This document shows, piece by piece, positions 30,382 to 39,344 of a DNA stretch of 39,484 nucleotides. Numbering within the stretch: position 1 is the stretch's first letter; each line of letters begins with the position of its first letter. The notes beneath the pieces are model-generated. The model ran no database searches. It worked only from the letters and a program-made list of their open reading frames with translations, and had not been told where the DNA came from. Location of the stretch: the NCBI RefSeq assembly GCF_000346505.1, contig NZ_ANOH01000132.1, positions 1 to 39,484 of the forward strand. The letters are read 5' to 3'. This DNA is from Aporhodopirellula sallentina SM41 (GTDB lineage Bacteria; Planctomycetota; Planctomycetia; Pirellulales; Pirellulaceae). The position numbers and the translations under genes are program-made.

Positions 30382-30397
30382 CGTGCGTTCGTGCCCA
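30382..30397 (+). promoter_or_regulatory. Candidate activator half-site upstream of nitroreductase
   Basis: CGTGC-GTTCGT-GCCCA matches the left arm and spacing, and 3 of 5 bases of the right arm, of the CGTGC-N6-GCACG repeats found near the regulator and stress-protein genes. A second CCGTGCG occurs 20 bases upstream (30361-30367). It is about 55-70 bases ahead of the -24 box. Confidence 0.3.
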
Positions 30398-30448: not shown

Positions 30449-30465
30449 GCGGCATGATCGTTGCA
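30449..30465 (+). promoter_or_regulatory. Sigma-54 (-24/-12) promoter of the nitroreductase gene
   Basis: GCGGCATGATCGTTGCA: GG at 30451-30452 and GC at 30463-30464 are separated by exactly 10 bases, with a full TTGCA -12 box. The -24 box matches GGCA. The predicted start near 30475 gives a ~45-base leader to the ATG at 30520. Confidence 0.65.
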
Positions 30466-30519
30466 TCCCCATTCACGTGAGCATCCAACTCGCGCGCAAA
30501 TGTAATGGGGAGAAAAGCA

Positions 30520-31530
30520 ATGACGACCACATGTCAAGATGCCGCAATGCGTCGGCGTTCCAGCAATCTCAACAAACGCCTGCGAGGTGCGGTAGAGTTT
30601 GCCGTTTTGGCTCCGTCGAGCCACAACACGCAACCGTGGAAATTCCGGATCGTTCGCGATGGCATCGAACTTTATGCCGACCGTGATCGAGCGCTTCCGG
30701 TAGTGGATCCACACGACCGAGAACTTACGATCAGTTGTGGTGCGGCACTCTATCACCTTCGACTTGCGTTGAACTGTGATTCACTGGCCACGCTTATCCA
30801 TGTACTTCCTTCCGCCGATCACCCCGACCTGCTCGCTCGGTTGCGGGTCAGTGGGCCTCACACTCCGGATGAAGACGAACAAGAATTGTTTCGGGCAATC
30901 GCGCACCGGCGAACCAATCGACAACCATTCGACCACCGAAACGTTCCTCTTTCGATCTTTGACGAATGGTACCTGGACCTGAAAGAACATAATTGTTGGT
31001 TGCAACTCGTCGAAGACAAGACGCAAAAGCACATCATCGCCGACCTAATATCCGAAGGCGATCGCCTGCAGGGCAGCGACCGGCGTTTTCGTCGTGAATT
31101 GTCTCAATGGGTTCATCCCAATCGCACGTCATGTCGCGACGGAATGCCGGGCTACGCACATGGAATAAACATGATCGCATCGTACCTGGGTCCACTGATG
31201 GTTCGCACATTCGATTGGGGCGAAGGACAGGCGGCCAAAGATCGTCAATTGGCCGAGGGGTCGCCCTTGCTCGCGATCATTGGAACCCAAGACGATACCC
31301 CGGAAGCCTGGATGTCGACCGGACAAGCCTTGGCCAAAATGCTACTCCGAGGCACGTCCCGTGGCTTGTCAGCATCGTTCTTGAATCAACCCATCGAAGT
31401 CACCTCTCTCAGACCGGAGATCGAGGATCAGTGTGATGAAAAAGGCTTCCCGCAGATTCTCCTGAGATGGGGTTACGGCCGGGAGGTGCCGGCAACTCCC
31501 CGGCGCAGTGTCGAAGAGGTCTTGGTGTGA
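30520..31530 (+). CDS. Acg-family (nitroreductase-like) FMN-binding oxidoreductase
   Basis: A 336-aa protein. The ATG at 30520 is preceded by GGGGAG (30507-30512, seven-base gap), so it is preferred over an ATG at 30505. The N-terminal block LAPSSHNTQPWKFRI (about 29-43) is the flavin-phosphate-binding signature of nitroreductases; HRRTNRQPF is the second typical block, and GWGYGRE-like RWGYGREVPATPRR ends the fold. The length (two nitroreductase-like halves) and motifs fit the Acg family, first known from the DosR hypoxia regulon of mycobacteria, which may bind flavin without reducing nitro compounds. A sigma-54 promoter lies directly upstream, so it is likely induced by the NtrC-type regulator encoded at 32697-34142. 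Confidence 0.82.
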   Translation: MTTTCQDAAMRRRSSNLNKRLRGAVEFAVLAPSSHNTQPWKFRIVRDGIELYADRDRALPVVDPHDRELTISCGAALYHLRLALNCDSLATLIHVLPSADHPDLLARLRVSGPHTPDEDEQELFRAIAHRRTNRQPFDHRNVPLSIFDEWYLDLKEHNCWLQLVEDKTQKHIIADLISEGDRLQGSDRRFRRELSQWVHPNRTSCRDGMPGYAHGINMIASYLGPLMVRTFDWGEGQAAKDRQLAEGSPLLAIIGTQDDTPEAWMSTGQALAKMLLRGTSRGLSASFLNQPIEVTSLRPEIEDQCDEKGFPQILLRWGYGREVPATPRRSVEEVLV

Positions 31531-31553
31531 CACGCTTTCGACACACACCTAAC

Positions 31554-31628
31554 ATGATGTAGCCGATGTCGCCAGAATTCGGTGGCCTGAATCTGCGGGC
31601 CTGAATTTGCGAACCCGCATTCTGGCGA
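31554..31628 (+). repeat. Dispersed repeat, copy D, with perfect 10-bp stem
   Basis: The core TGATGTAGCCGATGTCGCC matches copy A, and GTCGCCAGAATTCGGT matches copy B. TCGCCAGAAT (31569-31578) and ATTCTGGCGA (31619-31628) are perfect 10-bp inverted arms around 40 bases. The CTAGAGC end is missing. It lies in the 128-base gap between the convergent nitroreductase and K+ channel genes and may end both transcripts. Confidence 0.7.
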
Positions 31629-31658
31629 ATCTTTTCGCAGCATGGCTTCGAAACCCTC

Positions 31659-32681
31659 TCAATCGGCCCGCTGATACTTCGTACGAAACTCGCTGATATC
31701 TCCACTACGTCCCATCAACATCAACGTGTCGCCAGCATGAATCAATTGCGCGGCGTCGGGGTTGAAGACGAGTTGTTCGTCTTTGGTTTGAATCGCCACG
31801 ATCAGCAGTTTATGGTCGCGGTGCGCATCGGTTGCCCCAACTGACATGCCAACAAGCCCACTCAACTCATCGACACACAATTCATCCAACTCGAGGTCAG
31901 CGAACTCGCGCTGAGACAACAACTCGATTAGGTCGGCCGTCGTGGGTCTGGTAATCACACGGGCCATTTGACGCGATCCCACCACCGTCGGCATCACCAC
32001 ACGATCGGCCCCGGCCTGGCGCAGTTTCTTTTCGGTGCTGCGTTGATCCGCTCTCGCCACGATTTGAATTTTTGAGTTGAGATTTCGCGCCGTCAGAGTC
32101 AGGAACACGTTTTCCGCGTCACCCGACAAGGCAGCCACCAACGTTCGAGCACGCTCGATTCCGACGGATTCCAACGTCGCTTCCTCGGTTGCATCGCCCG
32201 TTATACACGGGAATTCAAGAAGATCCGCTTCTCGAATCCGTTCGCCGTTGCTTTCAATGATGACAACGGTTCTTCCCTGCGACCGCAGGTCTTCGGCCAG
32301 ACTATGCCCCATCCGTCCGAAACCACAAATGATGACGTGGTTATTCATGTCAGCGATTTCTGCGGTCATTCGACGAAGTCCGATTAGACGATCAATTTCA
32401 CCGGCCAAGAGCAGTTGGATTAACCCACCGAAGGTGTACGCCGCAGCAGACATCCCGATCAAAATGACGAAGACGGTGAACAACTGCAACGCCGGCGAGA
32501 GCGAACTGGACTCACTATATCCCACCGTGGAGATCGTGATCACTACCATCCAGATCGATTCGAGCCACCCGTAATCGCCGACGTAGCGATACCCGGTTAC
32601 CGCGACGGCGAACACGAACGCGAGCAGCACACCGCCGGCTGCGATCCGTTCAATCGGGGTTTTCCCCGGAAACGCCGTCAC
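31659..32681 (-). CDS. Potassium channel with RCK (TrkA-N/TrkA-C) domains
   Basis: A 340-aa two-helix K+ channel subunit. TM1 is at about 15-32. The pore loop has the selectivity filter T52-V-G-Y-S56 (ISTVGYSE), with Ser in place of the more usual Gly or Asp after Tyr. TM2 is at about 63-85. The RCK_N/Rossmann domain starts NHVIICGFGRMGHSLAEDL (about 114-230) and binds NAD or a nucleotide, and an RCK_C domain (about 255-335) ends the protein. It should conduct K+ across the inner membrane under ligand control. The GTG start is 15 bases after the stop of the sigma-54 regulator, so it is the third gene of that operon (kinase, regulator, channel) and shares its promoter. Confidence 0.93.
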   Translation of the reverse strand: MTAFPGKTPIERIAAGGVLLAFVFAVAVTGYRYVGDYGWLESIWMVVITISTVGYSESSSLSPALQLFTVFVILIGMSAAAYTFGGLIQLLLAGEIDRLIGLRRMTAEIADMNNHVIICGFGRMGHSLAEDLRSQGRTVVIIESNGERIREADLLEFPCITGDATEEATLESVGIERARTLVAALSGDAENVFLTLTARNLNSKIQIVARADQRSTEKKLRQAGADRVVMPTVVGSRQMARVITRPTTADLIELLSQREFADLELDELCVDELSGLVGMSVGATDAHRDHKLLIVAIQTKDEQLVFNPDAAQLIHAGDTLMLMGRSGDISEFRTKYQRAD

Positions 32682-32696
32682 GGACTTTTCACCCGA

Positions 32697-34142
32697 TCAG
32701 ACACTTGTTTCACACGATGCGACGGTCTCACGACACTCACTCTCGGAGCTGCAACGAAAGCGATCGAGTAGCCGGTAGAGTTTGCGGCGGTGTATCCCCA
32801 ACTTCCTCGCCGTACTGGCTTTATTGCCATGCTCTTTCGCGAGCACTTCTTCAACGTGAACACGCACCACCTCATCGAGTTTGAAATGCGAGTTCCCGAG
32901 CATATCGGAATGCGTGGGGACAATAGGAGCGGCATCGGTGCGAATAACGTTATCGGTACAATTTCGTTTCGACAATGATCGATTGTAATGAACAACCTCG
33001 TGCGGCAGGTCGTTGACCATAATATCAAAGTCGTCTGCCAGAATTGAGGCTCGCTCAATGACGTTGATCAGTTGCCGTACGTTGCCCGGCCAAGGATAAC
33101 GATTGAGAATTTCTCGCGCCGCTGGGTCGATCCGATACGACTTCGGCAAAAAGTGATCGATCAACCGATCGACATCACCTTCGCGTTCTCGCAAGGTCGG
33201 CAATTGAATCGCGAACACATTGATCCGATAAAACAAATCTTCGCGGAAACGTCCTGCGTCGACTTCGTTTTGCAGATCACGGTTGGTCGCCGCGATCAAA
33301 CGCACCGTAACACGGCGTTCACGATGGCACCCCACTCGTCGCATCGTCCCGTCCTCCAAAACTCGCAGCAGTTTTGGCTGCAGAGACAACGGCAACTCGC
33401 CGACTTCGTCGATGAACAGCGTGCCCCCATCGGCAATTTCAAACAATCCCGGTTTCTCTGCCGTCGCCCCGGTAAACGCGCCTTTGAGATGTCCAAATAA
33501 TTCACTTTCAACCAAATTCTCTGGGAACGCGGCACAGTTCACCGTCACAAAGGGACAGTCGGCTAAAGGACTCGCTTGCTGGATCGCCCTCGCGACCAAT
33601 TCTTTTCCGGTACCGCTCTCGCCTTGAATCAAAACCGGTTTGTTAGTCGGTCCGACTTTATCAATCAATCCGAGAACCTGCCGCAAAGGTTCGGATTCAC
33701 CGACGAGTGAGGCGGTCGGACGCGATCGCGAAATCACTGCTTTGAGTTGTTTATTCTCTTTCTTTAGCAGCCGACGTTCCCGGGCACGAAAACAATGATG
33801 CTCGAGATCCGCCAATGAACATGGCTTGCGCAGGAATTCACATGCTCCCATTTTCATAGCCGAAACGGCGGTTTCGACGGTTCCCTGTCCCGTCAGAATG
33901 ATCACCTCGACGTCGAGATGCTCTTGGTGAACCCGCTGCAGTAGCTCGAGGCCCGACATGCCGGGCATATTCATATCAAAGACGCCAACGTCGAACGTTT
34001 GCCGCTGCAAAAGAGTGAGAGCTTCCGCGGCGTTGGAGACATCGGTCACCTCATGACCTTTTCGCCGCAACCACTTTGCGGCCGAACGACGTGAATCTTC
34101 TTCATCATCAACAAGCAATATTTTGATCGGTTGTTCAGACAT
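32697..34142 (-). CDS. NtrC-family sigma-54-dependent response regulator
   Basis: A 481-aa protein in the normal three-domain order. The ATG at 34142 starts just before the receiver (IKILLVDDEED); the longer frame to 34358 adds no domain. Receiver 1-125: acidic pocket Asp12/Asp13, phospho-acceptor Asp56, Thr84, Lys106, all intact. AAA+ domain about 145-380: Walker A GESGTGKE (174-181), GAFTGA loop (221-226) that contacts sigma-54, Walker B TLFIDE. C-terminal helix-turn-helix (about 435-465, NKASTARKLGIHRRKLYRLL). It should activate -24/-12 promoters, four of which I see in this region. It is encoded downstream of a PAS kinase and upstream of a K+ channel. An alternative upstream promoter of its own is possible in the 231-base gap after the kinase gene. 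Confidence 0.96.
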   Translation of the reverse strand: MSEQPIKILLVDDEEDSRRSAAKWLRRKGHEVTDVSNAAEALTLLQRQTFDVGVFDMNMPGMSGLELLQRVHQEHLDVEVIILTGQGTVETAVSAMKMGACEFLRKPCSLADLEHHCFRARERRLLKKENKQLKAVISRSRPTASLVGESEPLRQVLGLIDKVGPTNKPVLIQGESGTGKELVARAIQQASPLADCPFVTVNCAAFPENLVESELFGHLKGAFTGATAEKPGLFEIADGGTLFIDEVGELPLSLQPKLLRVLEDGTMRRVGCHRERRVTVRLIAATNRDLQNEVDAGRFREDLFYRINVFAIQLPTLREREGDVDRLIDHFLPKSYRIDPAAREILNRYPWPGNVRQLINVIERASILADDFDIMVNDLPHEVVHYNRSLSKRNCTDNVIRTDAAPIVPTHSDMLGNSHFKLDEVVRVHVEEVLAKEHGNKASTARKLGIHRRKLYRLLDRFRCSSESECRETVASCETSV

Positions 34143-34264
34143 CTCATTCTTCACAGATGGATAGCGAACGATTGCGGGGCCGTTCGGTCGGATAGTGATT
34201 GCGGTAGACAACCGCACACGACTCCCGCGTGATGCGAAAAACGTTCCGTCACCGAAAACGGCTA

Positions 34265-34278
34265 TTTGCACGTGCAAA
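34265..34278. promoter_or_regulatory. 14-bp perfect palindrome upstream of the regulator
   Basis: TTTGCACGTGCAAA is its own reverse complement. It lies in the 231-base gap between the kinase stop (34374) and the regulator ATG (34142), about 125 bases before the latter. It may be an operator or part of a tandem site with 34290-34305. Confidence 0.4.
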
Positions 34279-34289
34279 ACACGTCGCCA

Positions 34290-34305
34290 CGTGCGAACTC
34301 GCACG
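34290..34305. promoter_or_regulatory. CGTGC-N6-GCACG inverted repeat, candidate activator site
   Basis: CGTGC-GAACTC-GCACG, with perfect 5-bp arms and 6-base spacing, identical in arms and spacing to the site at 38265-38280 upstream of the universal stress protein. It lies 12 bases from the palindrome at 34265-34278. Confidence 0.4.
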
Positions 34306-34373
34306 ATCGCACACCAGCGCAATTCCTTTCGTACGTCGATTCGTTTTATCGTTCGCACAACAGATAGGTGTGA

Positions 34374-35462
34374 CTAAGAGCCGAACTCCTGCGGAAAGTA
34401 CACGTGCATGACCGCCCCACCGGCAGGATGATTGGAAGCTTCGATCGTGCCGTTGTGTGCCTCAGCAATCCGTTGGCAGACCGCCAACCCCAACCCTGTG
34501 CCTTGCTGTTTATTGGTAAAGAACGGCTCGAACATGCACTGCCTAGTTTCTTCGCTAATCCCGCTTCCGTAGTCCCGGACGGAGATTTCAATCCCCTGGG
34601 TTTGCTCCCGCTGGAAACGTTGGCATCGGATCTCGATATCCTTCCCAGGTGGACTCGCATGCACTGCGTTGTCCAACAGATGACGTAACAGCACCCGAAA
34701 TCGATCGACATCGAAACTGACTGCGGGCAGGTCTTCGTCGCACGATATGCGGACGTTGGAGTCTGCCCCACATTCCCATGACCACTGATCGACGATGACG
34801 CCGAGCAATTGCGACAACTCCACGACCGAGCGTTTCAATAGAATCGGCGCCGCATACTCCCGCACCTCTTCATAGTTGCGGTGAATCCCTCGCAACGCGT
34901 TTCGAATACGATGAGTCAATTGAAGAGACTCGCTGTTCGTCTCCAAATCCATCTCGAGTAGGTCGAGACAGGATTCTGCACGCTGCATCGCATTGCGTGA
35001 CTCATGCGACAACCCCGACACCATCTGCGAGACGGCTGCCAAACGTTCACATTCCAGGTGCTTTCGATAACACCAATCATGGTCGGTAACGCTGACCACG
35101 TTGATCAACCGAATCTCCCCCGCGTCGGTCTCCAACGCATGCAGACAAACTTTTGTCAAGAAAAACGTTTTGTCTCTTCGACGCGCCGATAGCCACCATT
35201 TTTTTCCGGGTTCTGGATCTCGCACATGTGACATGAAGCACGACGAATGTGCCTCCGCGTCACCTTTAGACTCAAACCGGAACAGACGTTCAATCGCCAT
35301 TCCGACGAGCTCGGCATCGACATACCCGAACCACTCCTGAGCCACGGGATTGGCCTGGGAAATCGTCCCGTTAGGGGTCGTCAGGAAGATCGCCACCGGC
35401 GACGTTTCGATCAGAATGTTCGCAATTCGATTGCGACTCAAAGGAACCATCGCTTGCATCAT
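34374..35462 (-). CDS. PAS-domain sensor histidine kinase (cytoplasmic)
   Basis: A 362-aa kinase with no membrane segment. A PAS domain spans about 12-130 (IETSPVAIFLTTPNGTISQANPVAQEWFGY), able to sense a small molecule or redox cue. The HisKA domain has the H-box SGLSHESRNAMQR with phospho-acceptor His153. The HATPase domain has the N-box LLDNAVHAS, DYGSGI, FEPFFTNK and GTGLGL, all intact. It is the first gene of the kinase-regulator-channel operon and should phosphorylate the NtrC-type regulator next to it. It is a paralogue of the kinase at 36468-37961; both have HESRNAxQR and EVREYAAPI. A strong sigma-54 promoter ends 42 bases ahead of its start, suggesting positive autoregulation. An ATG directly follows the first, so the start may shift by one codon. 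Confidence 0.94.
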   Translation of the reverse strand: MMQAMVPLSRNRIANILIETSPVAIFLTTPNGTISQANPVAQEWFGYVDAELVGMAIERLFRFESKGDAEAHSSCFMSHVRDPEPGKKWWLSARRRDKTFFLTKVCLHALETDAGEIRLINVVSVTDHDWCYRKHLECERLAAVSQMVSGLSHESRNAMQRAESCLDLLEMDLETNSESLQLTHRIRNALRGIHRNYEEVREYAAPILLKRSVVELSQLLGVIVDQWSWECGADSNVRISCDEDLPAVSFDVDRFRVLLRHLLDNAVHASPPGKDIEIRCQRFQREQTQGIEISVRDYGSGISEETRQCMFEPFFTNKQQGTGLGLAVCQRIAEAHNGTIEASNHPAGGAVMHVYFPQEFGS

Positions 35463-35504
35463 TGTTCCAACCCAAGGGAGTCAACAAACAGGCAAGCCGA
35501 TTGC

Positions 35505-35521
35505 CGCAAGCGGAGTGCCGT
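35505..35521 (-). promoter_or_regulatory. Sigma-54 promoter of the kinase-regulator-channel operon
   Basis: On the minus strand: ACGGCACTCCGCTTGCG. GG (35519-35518) and GC (35507-35506) are 10 bases apart, with GGCAC and TTGC both complete. The predicted start near 35494 gives a ~32-base leader to the ATG at 35462. It is divergent from the flavodoxin promoter 37 bases away. Confidence 0.7.
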
Positions 35522-35557
35522 TTCTCGCGTTTGAACAGAATCACTCAGCAGAAAAGT

Positions 35558-35574
35558 CTGGCACAGCGTTCGCA
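35558..35574 (+). promoter_or_regulatory. Sigma-54 promoter of the HemG-like flavodoxin gene
   Basis: CTGGCACAGCGTTCGCA: the -24 box TGGCAC is perfect, GG (35560-35561) to GC (35572-35573) spacing is 10 bases, and the -12 box is TCGCA (one mismatch). The predicted start near 35585 leaves a ~195-base leader before the ATG at 35781, longer than usual; no other gene lies between. Confidence 0.7.
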
Positions 35575-35780
35575 TTATGCTTCCTGAAGTGATTGGCATC
35601 CCGATCGGAAGATTTGACTCAGCAGGATTTGTTTTCGCACACGGAGGTTCTCTCAACAGGGCCTCGAAGAGTTTTCTCTTCCTATCTAAAATTTGAGCAT
35701 CCAGTTCCTCAAATCGGATAGGATGAAATCAGTCGGGCGTCGCCAGACCCCAGTAATCGTCATTACCGAAAGTGATCCAT

Positions 35781-36437
35781 ATGCGTGCGATAGTAATTTA
35801 CGCGTCGTGCGGAGGCCAAACGCGGCGAATCGCGCAACGCGTTGCCAAGACGATGACACAGCGCCGAGTCCCCACCGACACGTTCGACGTCACCAAACTC
35901 TCTGTTACCGAACTCGCGGTGAACTTCTACGACGCAGTCGTGTTTGGTTCGCCGATCTACTTCGGTGAACATGATCGTCGTATCCTGTGGTGCATGCGGG
36001 AGCACCGTCGCTTTCTCGCATCCGTCCCAACAGCGTTTTTCTCGGTGTGTCTGAATATCATCAACGCCCAAGAAGAGCGATGTAGAACGAACGATGACGT
36101 CACCAACGACATGCGAACGAGGATACCGTTTCAACCATCACGCCACGTTACATTTGCCGGTGCGTTGAGGTATTCCGAGTATGGATGGTTGAAGAAACGC
36201 ATCATGCATTCCCTCGCTTTGCAATCCGGTTACGAAAGCGAACTGGGTCACGATCGGGAATACACCGATTGGGATCATGTCAACTCATTCGCAGTTGACT
36301 TCGCCGATGAAGCGAGAGCGTTTCACCATCAATCGAGAAGCGTGCAGATTCCCGCCGACGCCAAACGCCCCGCGGAAGCAAAATGGCATCGCATCCATCG
36401 CTCGGAAGTGCAGTCGAACAGCCCCGTTTCTCGTTGA
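35781..36437 (+). CDS. hemG: HemG-like flavodoxin (protoporphyrinogen dehydrogenase family)
   Basis: A 218-aa flavodoxin-fold protein. The ATG at 35781 is preferred over a GTG at 35772. The FMN phosphate loop is IYASCGGQTRRIA (about residues 6-18). The middle block VVFGSPIYFGEHDRRI and the C-terminal block FAGALRYSEYGW...YTDWDHVNSFA match the HemG family (menaquinone-dependent protoporphyrinogen IX dehydrogenase) of enterobacteria, including GALRY and YTDW. About 35 extra basic residues close the protein. Most planctomycetes are thought to use other enzymes at this haem step, so it may serve another quinone-linked or redox-sensing role here. It is driven by its own sigma-54 promoter, divergent from the kinase operon, and converges with the second kinase with 30 bases between. 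Confidence 0.75.
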   Translation: MRAIVIYASCGGQTRRIAQRVAKTMTQRRVPTDTFDVTKLSVTELAVNFYDAVVFGSPIYFGEHDRRILWCMREHRRFLASVPTAFFSVCLNIINAQEERCRTNDDVTNDMRTRIPFQPSRHVTFAGALRYSEYGWLKKRIMHSLALQSGYESELGHDREYTDWDHVNSFAVDFADEARAFHHQSRSVQIPADAKRPAEAKWHRIHRSEVQSNSPVSR

Positions 36438-36467
36438 GAAGACGTCTCCGATTGCAGACCGGCGGGC

Positions 36468-37961
36468 TCACACGCTCACTTGTTCGTTCTTCTGGTCAAT
36501 TGAGTAACAGCAACTCTGCCCGCGACTGGGTCTTGCAACTCGCATCAGAAAGCAAGCTCCGGATTGATCGGTATCGCTGATTTCAATGCCACCACCATGT
36601 GCCTCGAGAATTCGTTGCACGATCGACATCCCCAATCCGGTACCGCGGGCTTTGGTTGTGAAGAAGGGATCAAATAGCTTTTCCCTCTGCTGCTGCGTCA
36701 AACCGGGACCGTTATCCTGAACAATGACGTGAATCCAACCGGGTTCATCACAACGACAGGTGACGCAAATCTGTGCCGGGTCACTGCAGGCGGCGAGTGA
36801 GTTTTCGAAGAGATTACGAAAGACGCGTTCCATCCGTATCTCATCGACCTCAACCACGATATCGCAGTCACAGATATCTTCTTTCAGGCTCGCAACCCGA
36901 TTTGATCGCGTGATGGCCAGATACTCCCATACACGTCGCCACACAGTAGGCAGGAAAACCGGTTCCGCATTCAAATGAATCGGCGCGGCATACTCACGAA
37001 CTTCCTCGAGTGTTTCCTTCAATTCGTTCGACGCACGGTAGATCGAATCCACCTCATCTCGCATGTCCGATCCGACCGGAATGTCGAGCTGCAGTATTTC
37101 AACGCTCGCCTGGATGCGTTGCAACGCATTGCGACTCTCGTGCGCAATCCTCGCGACGGTCTGCCCGATCGCTGCTAAACGTTGCGACTGAACCGAACTT
37201 TGCTGCGCCGCGATCAGGTCGGTGACATCGACGCCAATCGCTAAAATCGACTTGGCTTGACCATCATCACCATAGAGAGTTGTGTTTGACCAACGTATCT
37301 GTCGCGTCGCACCCGTTTTGGTCAACACCGAGTTGACCGCACCGGTACTCTCGTTGCGACGTGCAATCTCAACGAAAATATCACGAACTTGACGACGATC
37401 ATCGGTAGGCACACACGTCGTAAACCAATTCCGACCTCGTAGTTCCTCGAGTTGCCAACCCGCAATTCGGGAAAAGTAACTATTCACATGCTCGATCGTG
37501 CCATCCATATCGAGCAACAGGATGACCGCTTCGGCGGTCTTGAGCACCTCCGTCGCAAATTGATGCTCTTCGCAAAGACGATCCTCGACACGCCGCCTCT
37601 TGCAAATACGGGCCACACTCGCACGAACCACGTCGGCGTGAAACGGTTTGCAAATGTAGTCCACCACGCCGAGTTTCAACGCGACGATCGCATGATCGAG
37701 ATCCGCGTACGCTGCGACAATAACAAAGTCCGCGTTGGGCAATAACTGCTTCAATTCCGGTAGCACATCTTCGGCCAGACCGTCAGGCAATTCTCTCTCG
37801 AGGATCACCAACGCGATCGAAGGTTGAATGCCAGCCGTGCGAATCTCATCGAACGTTTCTGCGATACGGACGCTGTGACCATCGTCCCGCAAGATTTGCG
37901 TCAAACTTGACGAACAGTCGCGATCCGCTTCGACGAGCAATACGTTCAACGCATCATACAT
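36468..37961 (-). CDS. Hybrid PAS histidine kinase with degenerate N-terminal receiver
   Basis: A 497-aa cytoplasmic kinase; the ATG at 37961 starts directly before the receiver (ALNVLLVEADRD), while the longer frame opens with TTG and adds 12 residues. The receiver (1-125) keeps Lys105 but has Glu55 in place of the phospho-acceptor Asp (VILERELPDG) and Ala83 in place of Thr (VAAYAD), so it probably cannot be phosphorylated normally. A PAS domain (about 137-250) follows. HisKA has the H-box RIAHESRNALQR with His274. The HATPase has LFENSLAAC, DNGPGL, FDPFFTTK and GTGLGM, complete. It is a paralogue of the kinase at 34374-35462 and may be a second input to the same NtrC-type regulator. No regulator gene of its own lies beside it. 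Confidence 0.94.
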   Translation of the reverse strand: MYDALNVLLVEADRDCSSSLTQILRDDGHSVRIAETFDEIRTAGIQPSIALVILERELPDGLAEDVLPELKQLLPNADFVIVAAYADLDHAIVALKLGVVDYICKPFHADVVRASVARICKRRRVEDRLCEEHQFATEVLKTAEAVILLLDMDGTIEHVNSYFSRIAGWQLEELRGRNWFTTCVPTDDRRQVRDIFVEIARRNESTGAVNSVLTKTGATRQIRWSNTTLYGDDGQAKSILAIGVDVTDLIAAQQSSVQSQRLAAIGQTVARIAHESRNALQRIQASVEILQLDIPVGSDMRDEVDSIYRASNELKETLEEVREYAAPIHLNAEPVFLPTVWRRVWEYLAITRSNRVASLKEDICDCDIVVEVDEIRMERVFRNLFENSLAACSDPAQICVTCRCDEPGWIHVIVQDNGPGLTQQQREKLFDPFFTTKARGTGLGMSIVQRILEAHGGGIEISDTDQSGACFLMRVARPSRGQSCCYSIDQKNEQVSV

Positions 37962-38264
37962 CTTCCCTACCGTCCTACCGAGAAACACGCTTGACAAAAA
38001 AGTGCCCCGTCACCCCACAACCGTCATCGGGTCGTAGGTTCCATCGACACCGGGCTCGCAGGAAGAAGAACCAACATCCCCACGGTTCGTTGTCGCAAAC
38101 ATCTGCGAGCGGCCCCGCACTCCATGCAGTCAATACGTTCAGCATACCGAAACGCCCCGCATCGTTTAGCCCGAAAGTTCGGATTTATCGGCAGCGCATT
38201 GTCGCACGCCTTCTCTAACCACACCGGAAATTGGATTCACAAAAGAGTTGACGCGATGTGCACG

Positions 38265-38280
38265 CGTGCCATATCGCACG
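38265..38280. promoter_or_regulatory. CGTGC-N6-GCACG inverted repeat, candidate activator site 1
   Basis: CGTGC-CATATC-GCACG with perfect arms, 63 bases upstream of the -24 box of the stress-protein promoter. Arms and spacing equal those of 34290-34305. Confidence 0.45.
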
Positions 38281-38295
38281 AATCGATTTCGCCAA

Positions 38296-38311
38296 CGTGC
38301 AACGAAGCACA
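38296..38311. promoter_or_regulatory. CGTGC-N6-GCACA inverted repeat, candidate activator site 2
   Basis: CGTGC-AACGAA-GCACA differs from site 1 by one arm base. Its centre is 31 bases from that of site 1, close to three helical turns, which would put two bound dimers on one face of the DNA. Confidence 0.42.
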
Positions 38312-38340
38312 ATTCGCATTCAGAACAGCGGCTTCTTTCA

Positions 38341-38357
38341 TTGGTACGCAAACTGCG
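38341..38357 (+). promoter_or_regulatory. Sigma-54 promoter of the universal stress protein gene
   Basis: TTGGTACGCAAACTGCG: GG (38343-38344) and GC (38355-38356) are 10 bases apart; the -24 box is TTGGTAC (one mismatch) and the -12 box CTGCG is weaker. The predicted start near 38368 gives a ~56-base leader. Confidence 0.6.
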
Positions 38358-38423
38358 ATGTCTCTTCGGCAGGCACCGGACGTGAATACATTCCCCCGAA
38401 TTGACGTACGAGGAGACCAGAGC

Positions 38424-39344
38424 ATGAAGATTCTATTGGCAACCGATGGCTCTTCCGCTTCCACCGAAGCGGCAAAATTCGTTGTAAATTTGGCGAAGAA
38501 TTCTCCGGTCGATGTTGTGGTACTCACCGTTTCGTTCGATCCGGAACACTATCCCATGCATCCCTGGAGCGGGCACTGGACCGAACACGCCCAGGATCGC
38601 ACTCAGCCTATTTTAGACCGAGCAAAATCGCTTCTGAGCGAATCCTGCCAATCCGTTTCACTGGTTCACGGGTCGGGATCGGCGGCTCCCTGCATTCTCG
38701 ACCAAGCAAAGAAGTCCGAAGTCGACCTGATTGTCCTTGGTGCCAAAGGTCACACCGCGCTGCACCGTGTGCTGCTGGGGAGCGTTTCCGACAGTGTTGC
38801 CAGCAACGCGGAGTGCTCTGTCGTCGTGGTCCGACACCGCCCCAAAGCCGACGATCCGGTCAAAAGGATCGTGGTCGGTTTCGACCAATCAATCGCCTCT
38901 CGCGAAGCCGTCTTTGAGCTGATGCAGTGGAACCTCGCCAATGACTGCAGAGTCGACTTGGTCAGCGTTGCTTTGCAACCGTATGTCTTCGTAGGTGAGG
39001 GCTATGCGGGGCCGCCGATCACCATTGACCCTGAGTTGGTTGAGCGAATTGACGAGGCCGCCGAAAGAATCGCGAGCCAAGTTGCCGACCACTTTCCTGA
39101 CACCCATGCGCAAACACGTGTTTCCGATCACATCGGTGACTCGATCGTCAACGTCGCGGAGGAAACCAATGCGGAGCTGATCGTCGTCGGTGACACCGGA
39201 CACAGCCTGCTGAGCCGGTTCTTATTGGGGAGCACGTCAAAGTATGTCCTACGACATGCTCCTTGCAGCGTTTGGATCTCGCGACACCACTGGAACGCCG
39301 ACGCCACACCGAAAGAGGCAACCAACGCAGCCGCAACCGGTTAA
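38424..39344 (+). CDS. Tandem universal stress protein (two UspA domains)
   Basis: A 306-aa protein. The ATG at 38424 is chosen: AGGAG (38411-38415) lies eight bases ahead and the protein then begins with the UspA start KILLATDGS. Domain 1 is at about 1-147 and domain 2 at about 152-292 (RIVVGFDQS). Both carry the ATP-binding pattern G-2x-G-9x-G-S: GAKG...LLGS in the first and GDTG...LLGS in the second, so both are probably nucleotide-binding. Such proteins help cells survive starvation, hypoxia or oxidative stress. It is cytoplasmic and monocistronic, with a sigma-54 promoter and two candidate activator sites upstream, which places it in the regulon of the NtrC-type regulator. Confidence 0.94.
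   Translation: MKILLATDGSSASTEAAKFVVNLAKNSPVDVVVLTVSFDPEHYPMHPWSGHWTEHAQDRTQPILDRAKSLLSESCQSVSLVHGSGSAAPCILDQAKKSEVDLIVLGAKGHTALHRVLLGSVSDSVASNAECSVVVVRHRPKADDPVKRIVVGFDQSIASREAVFELMQWNLANDCRVDLVSVALQPYVFVGEGYAGPPITIDPELVERIDEAAERIASQVADHFPDTHAQTRVSDHIGDSIVNVAEETNAELIVVGDTGHSLLSRFLLGSTSKYVLRHAPCSVWISRHHWNADATPKEATNAAATG

Follow-up and report, generated by a model that had tools for sequence, protein, structure and literature searches.

A candidate autoregulated sigma-54 regulon of stress and redox genes around an NtrC-type activator in Aporhodopirellula sallentina SM41

In Aporhodopirellula sallentina SM41 a group of stress and redox genes surrounds the gene for an NtrC-type regulator, and the question that this locus raises is whether these genes form a regulon under the control of that regulator. 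We analyzed a stretch of 39,484 nucleotides that includes the locus (the window). The outermost genes of the island are acg (30520–31530, forward strand), whose product passed the cut-off for the Acg/Rv3131 subfamily of FMN-binding oxidoreductases (NF047509, 338.8 bits versus 199), and usp (38424–39344, forward strand), which encodes a two-domain universal stress protein. Between them, as judged from Pfam domains, are kch (31659–32681, reverse strand), which starts 15 bp after ntrC and encodes a K+ channel with Ion_trans_2, TrkA_N and TrkA_C domains; ntrC itself (32697–34142, reverse strand); a PAS-HisKA-HATPase kinase gene, HK1 (34374–35462, reverse strand); a flavodoxin gene (Flavodoxin_5; 35781–36437, forward strand); and a REC-PAS-HisKA-HATPase kinase gene, HK2 (36468–37961, reverse strand). 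The flavodoxin is HemG-like, but it missed the NF008316 equivalog cut-off for HemG (menaquinone-dependent PPO; 103.7 versus 142); we use hemG below as a short name only.

The regulator has REC, AAA+ and Fis HTH domains in one protein (PF00072, 97.3 bits; PF00158, 230.5; PF02954, 31) with the sigma-54 contact loop GAFTGA at residue 221, which is GSFTGA in three relatives inspected. Its sigma factor, rpoN, is represented in the genome by one PF04552 match (210.2 bits). The preliminary description took this to be the sole regulator of a suitable type, which is correct within the window but not in the genome, where 23 PF00158 matches, including a sister of this regulator, are over the cut-off and 18 of these are strong (sigma-54 activators). 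The island regulator missed the equivalog cut-offs for NtrC proper, the nitrogen regulator NR(I) (TIGR01818, 400.8 versus 558.6), for ZraR (NF007689, 309 versus 760) and for AtoC (NF008469, 400.3 versus 714). As for the kinases, the Pfam search found PAS or REC-PAS alone ahead of the kinase cores of HK1 and HK2, with no match to a GAF domain at E ≤ 0.001 in either.

Candidate sigma-54 sites were scored against TGGCAC-N5-TTGC (10 positions). The four -24/-12 sites described previously were all confirmed, each with the GG-N10-GC spacing: acg (CGGCATGATCGTTGC, 30450–30464, forward strand, 8/10), HK1 (CGGCACTCCGCTTGC, 35506–35520, reverse strand, 9/10), hemG (TGGCACAGCGTTCGC, 35559–35573, forward strand, 9/10, 207 bp before the ATG) and usp (TGGTACGCAAACTGC, 38342–38356, forward strand, 8/10). 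A fifth, weaker site that was absent from the earlier list is situated ahead of ntrC (CGGAACGTTTTTCGC, 34234–34248, reverse strand, 7/10) and has aligned counterparts in Rhodopirellula rubra and Aporhodopirellula aestuarii. For HK2, no site with ≤3 mismatches was found within 350 bp upstream. A scan for sigma-70 promoters and terminators returned no more matches than shuffled sequences.

Within the island, sites with ≤2 mismatches occur in four of the six upstream regions, compared to a mean of 0.32 and a maximum of 2 in 200 dinucleotide shuffles, which agrees with the earlier view that chance explains the four sites poorly. Over the whole window the count is four of 24 upstream regions, while the shuffles had a mean of 1.15 and reached 4 in 2 of 200 rounds, and the reversed pattern matched three regions; the promoter count is, therefore, only moderately unusual when no island boundary is drawn. 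The genome-wide -24/-12 scan that had been suggested as a check revealed no enrichment (29 exact consensus matches versus 40 for the reversed pattern), and we do not use such counts as evidence. Instead, the case for the predicted promoters is carried by the positions of the sites and their conservation. The matches are kept at the orthologous genes of R. rubra and A. aestuarii. In three genomes 55 bp separate the acg site (CGGCATGATC-N-TTGCA) from the ATG, the usp site is likewise unchanged in three, the hemG-side site (GGCAC-N4-TTCGC) is kept in all six compared, and the HK1 site in five of six.

A search for a potential enhancer was conducted with the window excluded, using 3328 palindromic 4-mer dyads and 81 stretches from 24 loci of relatives. 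GTGC-N6-GCAC ranked first, being present in 24 of the 81 stretches (0.45 expected), whereas the highest count for any dyad in 60 shuffle rounds was 9. In the window, intact copies are situated ahead of ntrC (CGTGC-N6-GCACG, 34290–34305, about 43 bp from the -24) and, twice, ahead of usp (CGTGCCATATCGCACG, 38265–38280, about 63 bp from the -24; CGTGCAACGAAGCACA, 38296–38311, about 32 bp). Degenerate copies (7/8) are found at acg (CGTGCGTTCGTGCCCA, 30382–30397, forward strand, 54 bp ahead of the -24 GG), where the position is conserved in both R. rubra and A. aestuarii (gap 55), and inside the HK1 coding sequence (35227–35242, at a distance of about 320 bp to the -24 of hemG). The dyad-promoter distances in the window, about 33, 44, 54 and 64 bp, are helically phased, and a set of 64 dyad-promoter pairs had R = 0.61 at 10.5 bp; after de-duplication to 46 pairs R was 0.53, a value that 20,000 uniform draws never reached.

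In the A. sallentina genome the strict dyad is rarer than its reversed control (29 copies versus 43), and the corresponding counts are 42 versus 65 (G003), 42 versus 64 (G009), 28 versus 32 (G008) and 45 versus 22 (G006), the best ntrC match being 43% identical in both G006 and G008. Such counts were discarded as evidence, and the dyad thus has weight only beside a -24/-12. The window holds three of the 29 strict dyads, two of which have a -24/-12 of ≤2 mismatches within 260 bp compared to none of the other 26, and at ≤3 mismatches the figures are 3/3 and 4/26. Since the genome-wide scan covered the strict form of the dyad, there may be further targets, with degenerate (7/8) dyads, outside the island.

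The proposed "kinase-regulator-channel operon" is probably two transcription units, HK1 and a separate ntrC-kch, given the conserved site ahead of ntrC, and we reject a single promoter ahead of HK1 as the sole one for all three genes. In addition, the self-amplification suggested previously gains support from the dyad and -24/-12 ahead of ntrC and from a predicted autoregulation pair of this kind (dyad plus -24/-12) upstream of 23 of 38 genes of the ntrC clade (shuffles: mean 0.57, maximum 3). The 15 clade genes without this pair include those of L096, L097 and L098 (74–75% identity) and those of L155–L158, in which the dyad is present and the promoter absent. Across the clade the recognition helix (LGIHRRKLYRLL) hardly varies, while the best of 14 other activators with a readable HTH in the A. 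sallentina genome is identical at 20 of 37 positions. ntrC, HK2 and usp remain neighbors in several relatives, most related loci that we compared have an HK2 homolog adjoining ntrC, and in R. rubra and A. aestuarii HK1 and hemG are beside ntrC.

Based on these sequence statistics, we consider it likely that the island genes form a small sigma-54 regulon that is autoregulated and controlled by its own NtrC-type activator. In such a circuit, the regulator would be phosphorylated, presumably by HK1 and/or HK2, and would bind YGTGC-N6-GCACR, which in the window lies 32–63 bp upstream of the -24 on one helix face. Once bound, the regulator would remodel sigma-54 polymerase at three promoters (ntrC-kch, usp and acg) and might also activate HK1 and hemG via the dyad inside HK1. 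Activation would be self-reinforcing because ntrC itself is a predicted target. The products (Usp, the Acg flavoprotein, flavodoxin and K+ channel) would fit electron-acceptor limitation or energy-poor survival, and low oxygen or redox state may be the signal. Several features count against the regulon: the ntrC promoter is poor (7/10), sites just as poor accompany 4 of the remaining 26 strict dyads, 15 of the 38 clade genes have no dyad-promoter pair, and acg has a degenerate dyad whereas HK1 and hemG have none nearby.

That the promoters are chance matches to a loose consensus would accord with the flat genome-wide count and with the 2 of 200 shuffles that reached the observed number in the window; however, we regard this as highly improbable given the island shuffles, the conserved sites, a dyad found with the window left out and the helical phasing. 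Alternatively, the promoters may be shared with, or mainly served by, a sister activator on contig C101, so that the island would belong to a two-activator network rather than a private local circuit. Over residues 1–290 the sister has 70% identity to the island regulator; it is truncated at a contig end, which cuts off its HTH. Upstream of the sister gene there is a similar dyad (CGTGCGATAGTGCACT) with a -24/-12 at gap 168. Members of the 60–64% clade in other genomes share the HTH, and the sister may share targets with the island regulator. We nevertheless consider this arrangement unlikely, as this 39-kb contig alone accounts for three of the 29 strict dyads, no other strict dyad has a nearby -24/-12 of ≤2 mismatches, and ntrC, HK2 and usp stay adjacent in relatives. 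The HK1 and hemG promoters have the weakest link to the island regulator, as the window has no dyad of ≥7/8 between HK1 and hemG and only the degenerate one inside HK1. They could be under another of the 18 strong activators, leaving a regulon of ntrC-kch, usp and acg only, and this has a substantial, if less than even, chance of being correct. Among eight HK1 genes examined, three lack the intragenic dyad, while five have one of ≥7/8 at nt 204–222, with different encoded residues; this dyad is possibly a shared enhancer of HK1 and hemG, both of which adjoin ntrC in R. rubra and A. aestuarii.

A local circuit could also be real and respond to another stress (metal, osmotic, starvation or envelope) instead of low oxygen or redox state, a reading that we rate as plausible though somewhat short of probable. 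It would be consistent with the best NCBIfam kinase matches, AtoS and ZraS, both below cut-off; with the lack of an assignable cofactor for the PAS domains, the comparison of HK1 to solved structures having matched kinases of many sorts and given no cofactor clue; with the absence of Acg at E ≤ 1e-10 from 54 of 60 relatives; and with the use of the name ZraR for planctomycetal COG2204 members in passages of a sigma-54 survey (PMC12316311). In contrast, Acg, the flavodoxin and a hydrogenase in relatives point to electron-flow problems, as does the gene content of a mycobacterial regulon considered below.

DosR (DevR) of mycobacteria is a NarL/LuxR-type response regulator, and the sensor kinases of its system are of the GAF-haem type. 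The resemblance of the gene set to the DosR regulon, proposed earlier, was strengthened: Usp and Acg are common to the DosR regulon and, under predicted sigma-54 control, to the window, and a NiFe hydrogenase adds to the likeness in R. rubra and A. aestuarii, not in the A. sallentina genome. The control differs, being by sigma-54 and an AAA+ activator with a Fis HTH rather than by a NarL-type regulator. Usp, Acg and the hydrogenases Hhy and Hyh are named as members of the dos regulon of Mycobacterium smegmatis in passages of PMC8125079. The island programme would resemble the DosR regulon in function. We tentatively suggest, at somewhat less than even confidence, that Pirellulaceae evolved a DosR-like dormancy/electron-balance programme on sigma-54 independently of mycobacteria, in which a bEBP that amplifies its own expression would act through a private enhancer, GTGC-N6-GCAC, kept even within the gene of its own kinase, and would control Usp, Acg, flavodoxin and K+ channel, with an NAD(P)-linked NiFe hydrogenase and PEP synthase added in some species. 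The proposal makes convergence testable, in that the same types of target (Usp, Acg and a pyridine-nucleotide hydrogenase) would be governed by an unrelated regulatory apparatus.

Upstream dyad enhancers are a feature of NtrC-family two-component bEBP regulons. The NtrC, ZraSR and AtoSC regulons have the same REC-AAA+-Fis architecture, GAFTGA loop and -24/-12 promoters as the island, which differs from them in its dyad and its stress/redox target set. The survey mentions ZraR autoregulation and reports, among predicted sigma-54 targets of Planctomycetia or Planctomycetota, enrichment of COG0589 (UspA) and COG2204 (NtrC type) (PMC12316311, 2025). It works at the COG level; its main text contains none of the terms "nitroreductase," "Rhodopirellula" or "upstream activ," and passages in it on hydrogenases concern other phyla. 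For one of the roughly 18 sigma-54 activators of a planctomycete genome, our proposal names the activator itself together with a DNA operator and a set of targets.

Regarding the hydrogenase, no NiFe hydrogenase match (PF00374) was detected in the A. sallentina genome, and no PEP synthase ortholog either, apart from one partial 35% match; PEP synthase is the less certain of the two as a further regulon product in relatives. In R. rubra and A. aestuarii an NAD(P)-linked-type NiFe hydrogenase, possibly group-3b-like, is encoded alongside usp and acg. The alpha, beta and delta subunits best matched sulfhydrogenase subunit models and gamma best matched AsrB, all below equivalog cut-offs, and of the maturation proteins the protease was below its cut-offs and HypB over its own. 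In both relatives several hydrogenase genes follow one another, the first of them overlapping usp, and ahead of the hydrogenase genes are predicted usp and cNMP promoters with dyads.

The final 9 kb of the window, itself one whole contig (C132) of the 8.19 Mb, 491-contig genome of A. sallentina, holds acg, kch (K+ channel), ntrC (NtrC-family regulator), HK1 (PAS kinase), a HemG-like flavodoxin gene (hemG), HK2 (REC-PAS kinase) and usp (two-domain universal stress protein). Sequence comparison gives good support to the anatomy predicted for this island, that of a regulon under an autoregulated sigma-54 activator. The start of the regulator is most likely the ATG at 34142, the longer reading frame being a GTG extension. 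The usp gene ends 140 bp short of the contig end.

All four -24/-12 sites (predicted sigma-54 promoters) of the preliminary description are present with GG-N10-GC spacing. When up to 350 bp upstream of each gene was scanned, sites with ≤2 mismatches were found in four of the six island regions (mean 0.32 and maximum 2 in 200 shuffles), compared with none for the reversed pattern and two on the opposite strand, which are expected because the HK1/hemG region is common to divergent genes. Over the whole window, 4 of 24 regions had a site (shuffle mean 1.15, with four reached in 2 of 200 trials; reversed pattern 3), and over the window plus 17 related loci the count was 73 of 231, versus 9.3 by shuffling (40 rounds) and 9 for the reversed pattern. 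Since the exact consensus is not enriched in the A. sallentina genome (29 versus 40 reversed), site number alone proves little.

Close orthologues of the regulator occur in Rhodopirellula rubra (genome G003, locus L151), Aporhodopirellula aestuarii (G009, L152) and Neorhodopirellula pilleata (G011, L159), and the expectation that the promoter matches would be kept in orthologous loci was borne out. The acg element, CGGCATGATC-N-TTGCA, lies 55 bp upstream of the ATG in the window, R. rubra and A. aestuarii, and the usp element, TGGTACGCAAACTGC, has the same sequence in these three genomes. Of the six genomes compared, all retain GGCAC-N4-TTCGC on the hemG side and five the HK1 element; no hemG was matched next to the hemG-side element in G002 and G010. 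Of 60 genomes, six, A. sallentina included, have an Acg match (E ≤ 1e-10), and acg lies ≤15 kb from an ntrC orthologue in three further genomes (R. rubra, A. aestuarii and the relative G025). A second -24/-12-like match, CGGCAATCGGCTTGC (35506-35492, minus strand), 14 bp downstream of the HK1 element, is absent from the five other genomes compared.

When four upstream regions were compared, the words most clearly in common were GTGC/GCAC, shared by three. Predicted enhancer dyads of the form YGTGC-N6-GCACR lie upstream of ntrC (34290) and, twice, of usp (38265 and 38296), and a form matching at 7/8 positions lies upstream of acg (30382). Because the dyad was first noticed in the window, the discovery test was run with the window excluded, on 3328 palindromic 4-mer dyads (gaps 0-12) in 81 stretches preceding -24 sites at 24 related loci. 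GTGC-N6-GCAC ranked top, in 24 stretches versus 0.45 in shuffles (the maximum for any dyad in 60 rounds was 9), these not being 24 independent events since some loci are closely related; the runner-up, TGTG-N8-CACA, is an extension of the same motif. Within the window GTGC-N6-GCAC occurs four times, one copy (24198) being inside an unrelated gene. The strict dyad is present 29 times in the genome, versus 43 for the reversed control. Its three window copies are all intergenic and within the island; by gene calls the other 26 comprise 9 intergenic and 17 intragenic copies. Two of the three window dyads have a -24/-12 of ≤2 mismatches within 260 bp, versus none of the other 26; with ≤3 mismatches the counts are 3/3 versus 4/26, three of those four in genes. 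Another intragenic strict copy lies within the A. aestuarii acg coding region (G009:C24:107599-107614).

Autoregulation is suggested by the ntrC clade, in which 23 of 38 members (58-100% identity) have a dyad and a -24/-12 upstream of ntrC, compared with a mean of 0.57 (maximum 3) in 200 block shuffles, 2 in reversed sequence and 7 in the reverse complement. The pair is missing upstream of the other 15, including loci L096, L097 and L098 (74-75% identity); L155-L158, also among these 15, have the dyad and no promoter. A sister ntrC on contig C101 (L150, 10740-11609), cut short by the contig end, shares 70% identity over 290 residues. It has the dyad CGTGCGATAGTGCACT, which departs from the strict pattern at the final base, and, at a gap of 168, a promoter with 3 mismatches, CGGAACACACTTCGC. 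The recognition helix region of the regulator, LGIHRRKLYRLL, is near-invariant across the clade and unlike those of the 14 other activators of the genome with readable HTH (best, 20/37 identical). The genome has one rpoN and 18 strong sigma-54 activator matches by profile search (for the HTH comparison one was not recovered and two were cut by contig ends), so that the description of this protein as the only regulator of the right type holds for the window but not genome-wide. The sigma-54 contact loop is GAFTGA in the window protein and GSFTGA in clade members L151, L163 and L102.

Dyad-to-GG distances cluster at 32-34, 41-45, 51-56, 62-66, 73-77 and 82-83 bp, with a few outside (20, 23, 37, 109-130). 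We tested phasing after noticing these clusters by eye, using 34 loci, gaps of 20-130 (gaps of 135-222 also exist and were left out), dyads of ≥7/8 and promoters with ≤3 mismatches. At 10.5 bp, the B-DNA repeat, R was 0.61 (n = 64 pairs), or 0.53 (n = 46) after reduction to a single pair for each gene family and gap, a value reached by 0 of 20,000 uniform draws; 8/8 dyads alone gave 0.62 (n = 23, p 0.0001). The best-fitting period was 10.3-10.7.

Between HK1 and ntrC, alignment of the window, R. rubra and A. aestuarii identified a block, CGGAAC(G/A)T-N2-TTCGCA, in all three genomes, which is the predicted -24/-12 of ntrC itself (34248-34234, minus strand) and a fifth promoter. With kch lying 15 bp after ntrC, ntrC-kch is probably a transcription unit of its own; of the proposed kinase-regulator-channel operon, the promoter before HK1 stands but the single unit probably does not. 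A perfect palindrome, TTTGCACGTGCAAA (34265-34278), between the ntrC dyad and promoter is possibly a second operator; the alignment did not show it in R. rubra or A. aestuarii.

The HK1/hemG link is where the model is weakest. The intergenic region of the window has no 7/8 dyad, and an intragenic dyad at nt 204-222 of HK1 (≥7/8 in five of eight genes examined, 8/8 in two) could be an enhancer common to both genes. The encoded residues differ (SSCFMSH, LCFLSH, SVCTLSQ, TSCRPAR and TSCRLAQ); their common cysteine means that one dyad half is perhaps due to coding constraint. The coding background for such dyads is 57 in 132,857 bp, and the site is absent in A. aestuarii, K23_9 and L171.

R. rubra and A. 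aestuarii have a run of hydrogenase genes whose first member overlaps usp. The run encodes gamma, delta and alpha subunits, followed by a putative maturation protease that scores below cut-offs and by HypB, and lies downstream of the predicted usp promoter and dyads (7/8 and 8/8 in the two species, respectively). Both species also have a cNMP-binding protein gene followed by a beta-subunit gene, with another dyad and -24/-12, and a PEP synthase gene between acg and the hydrogenase/cNMP genes; a dyad and promoter immediately upstream of PEP synthase were found in L157 only. In G025, cNMP, beta, delta and alpha genes are also near ntrC. The best matches are to models of NAD(P)-dependent sulfhydrogenase for alpha, beta and delta and to AsrB for gamma. 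None of them reaches its equivalog cut-off, so the label "group 3b-like" is our interpretation. Neither a NiFe hydrogenase match nor an orthologue of this PEP synthase occurs in the A. sallentina genome. The hydrogenase and cNMP-binding genes of the R. rubra, A. aestuarii and G025 islands (L090/L091, L092 and L094) are missing from the window island, as is the PEP synthase of the first two.

The M. smegmatis dos regulon reportedly includes Usp and Acg as well as two hydrogenases, Hhy and Hyh (PMC8125079). The relatives' hydrogenase genes thus put the suggested DosR resemblance, as an analogy of gene content, on firmer ground than the window could by itself; regulator and sensor of the DosR type are absent here. 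A low-oxygen or redox signal and a pairing of the kinases with the regulator are inferences. Among the matches listed from the open-licence literature, none linked these genes, the dyad and sigma-54 in planctomycetes. In the text of an R. baltica stress array study, a single sigma-54 promoter is mentioned, that of a thioredoxin gene, and the terms "universal stress" and "nitroreductase" are absent (PMC2754498). According to a survey of predicted sigma-54 promoters published in 2025, UspA (COG0589) is enriched in Planctomycetia and NtrC-type regulators (COG2204, named ZraR) in Planctomycetota (PMC12316311).
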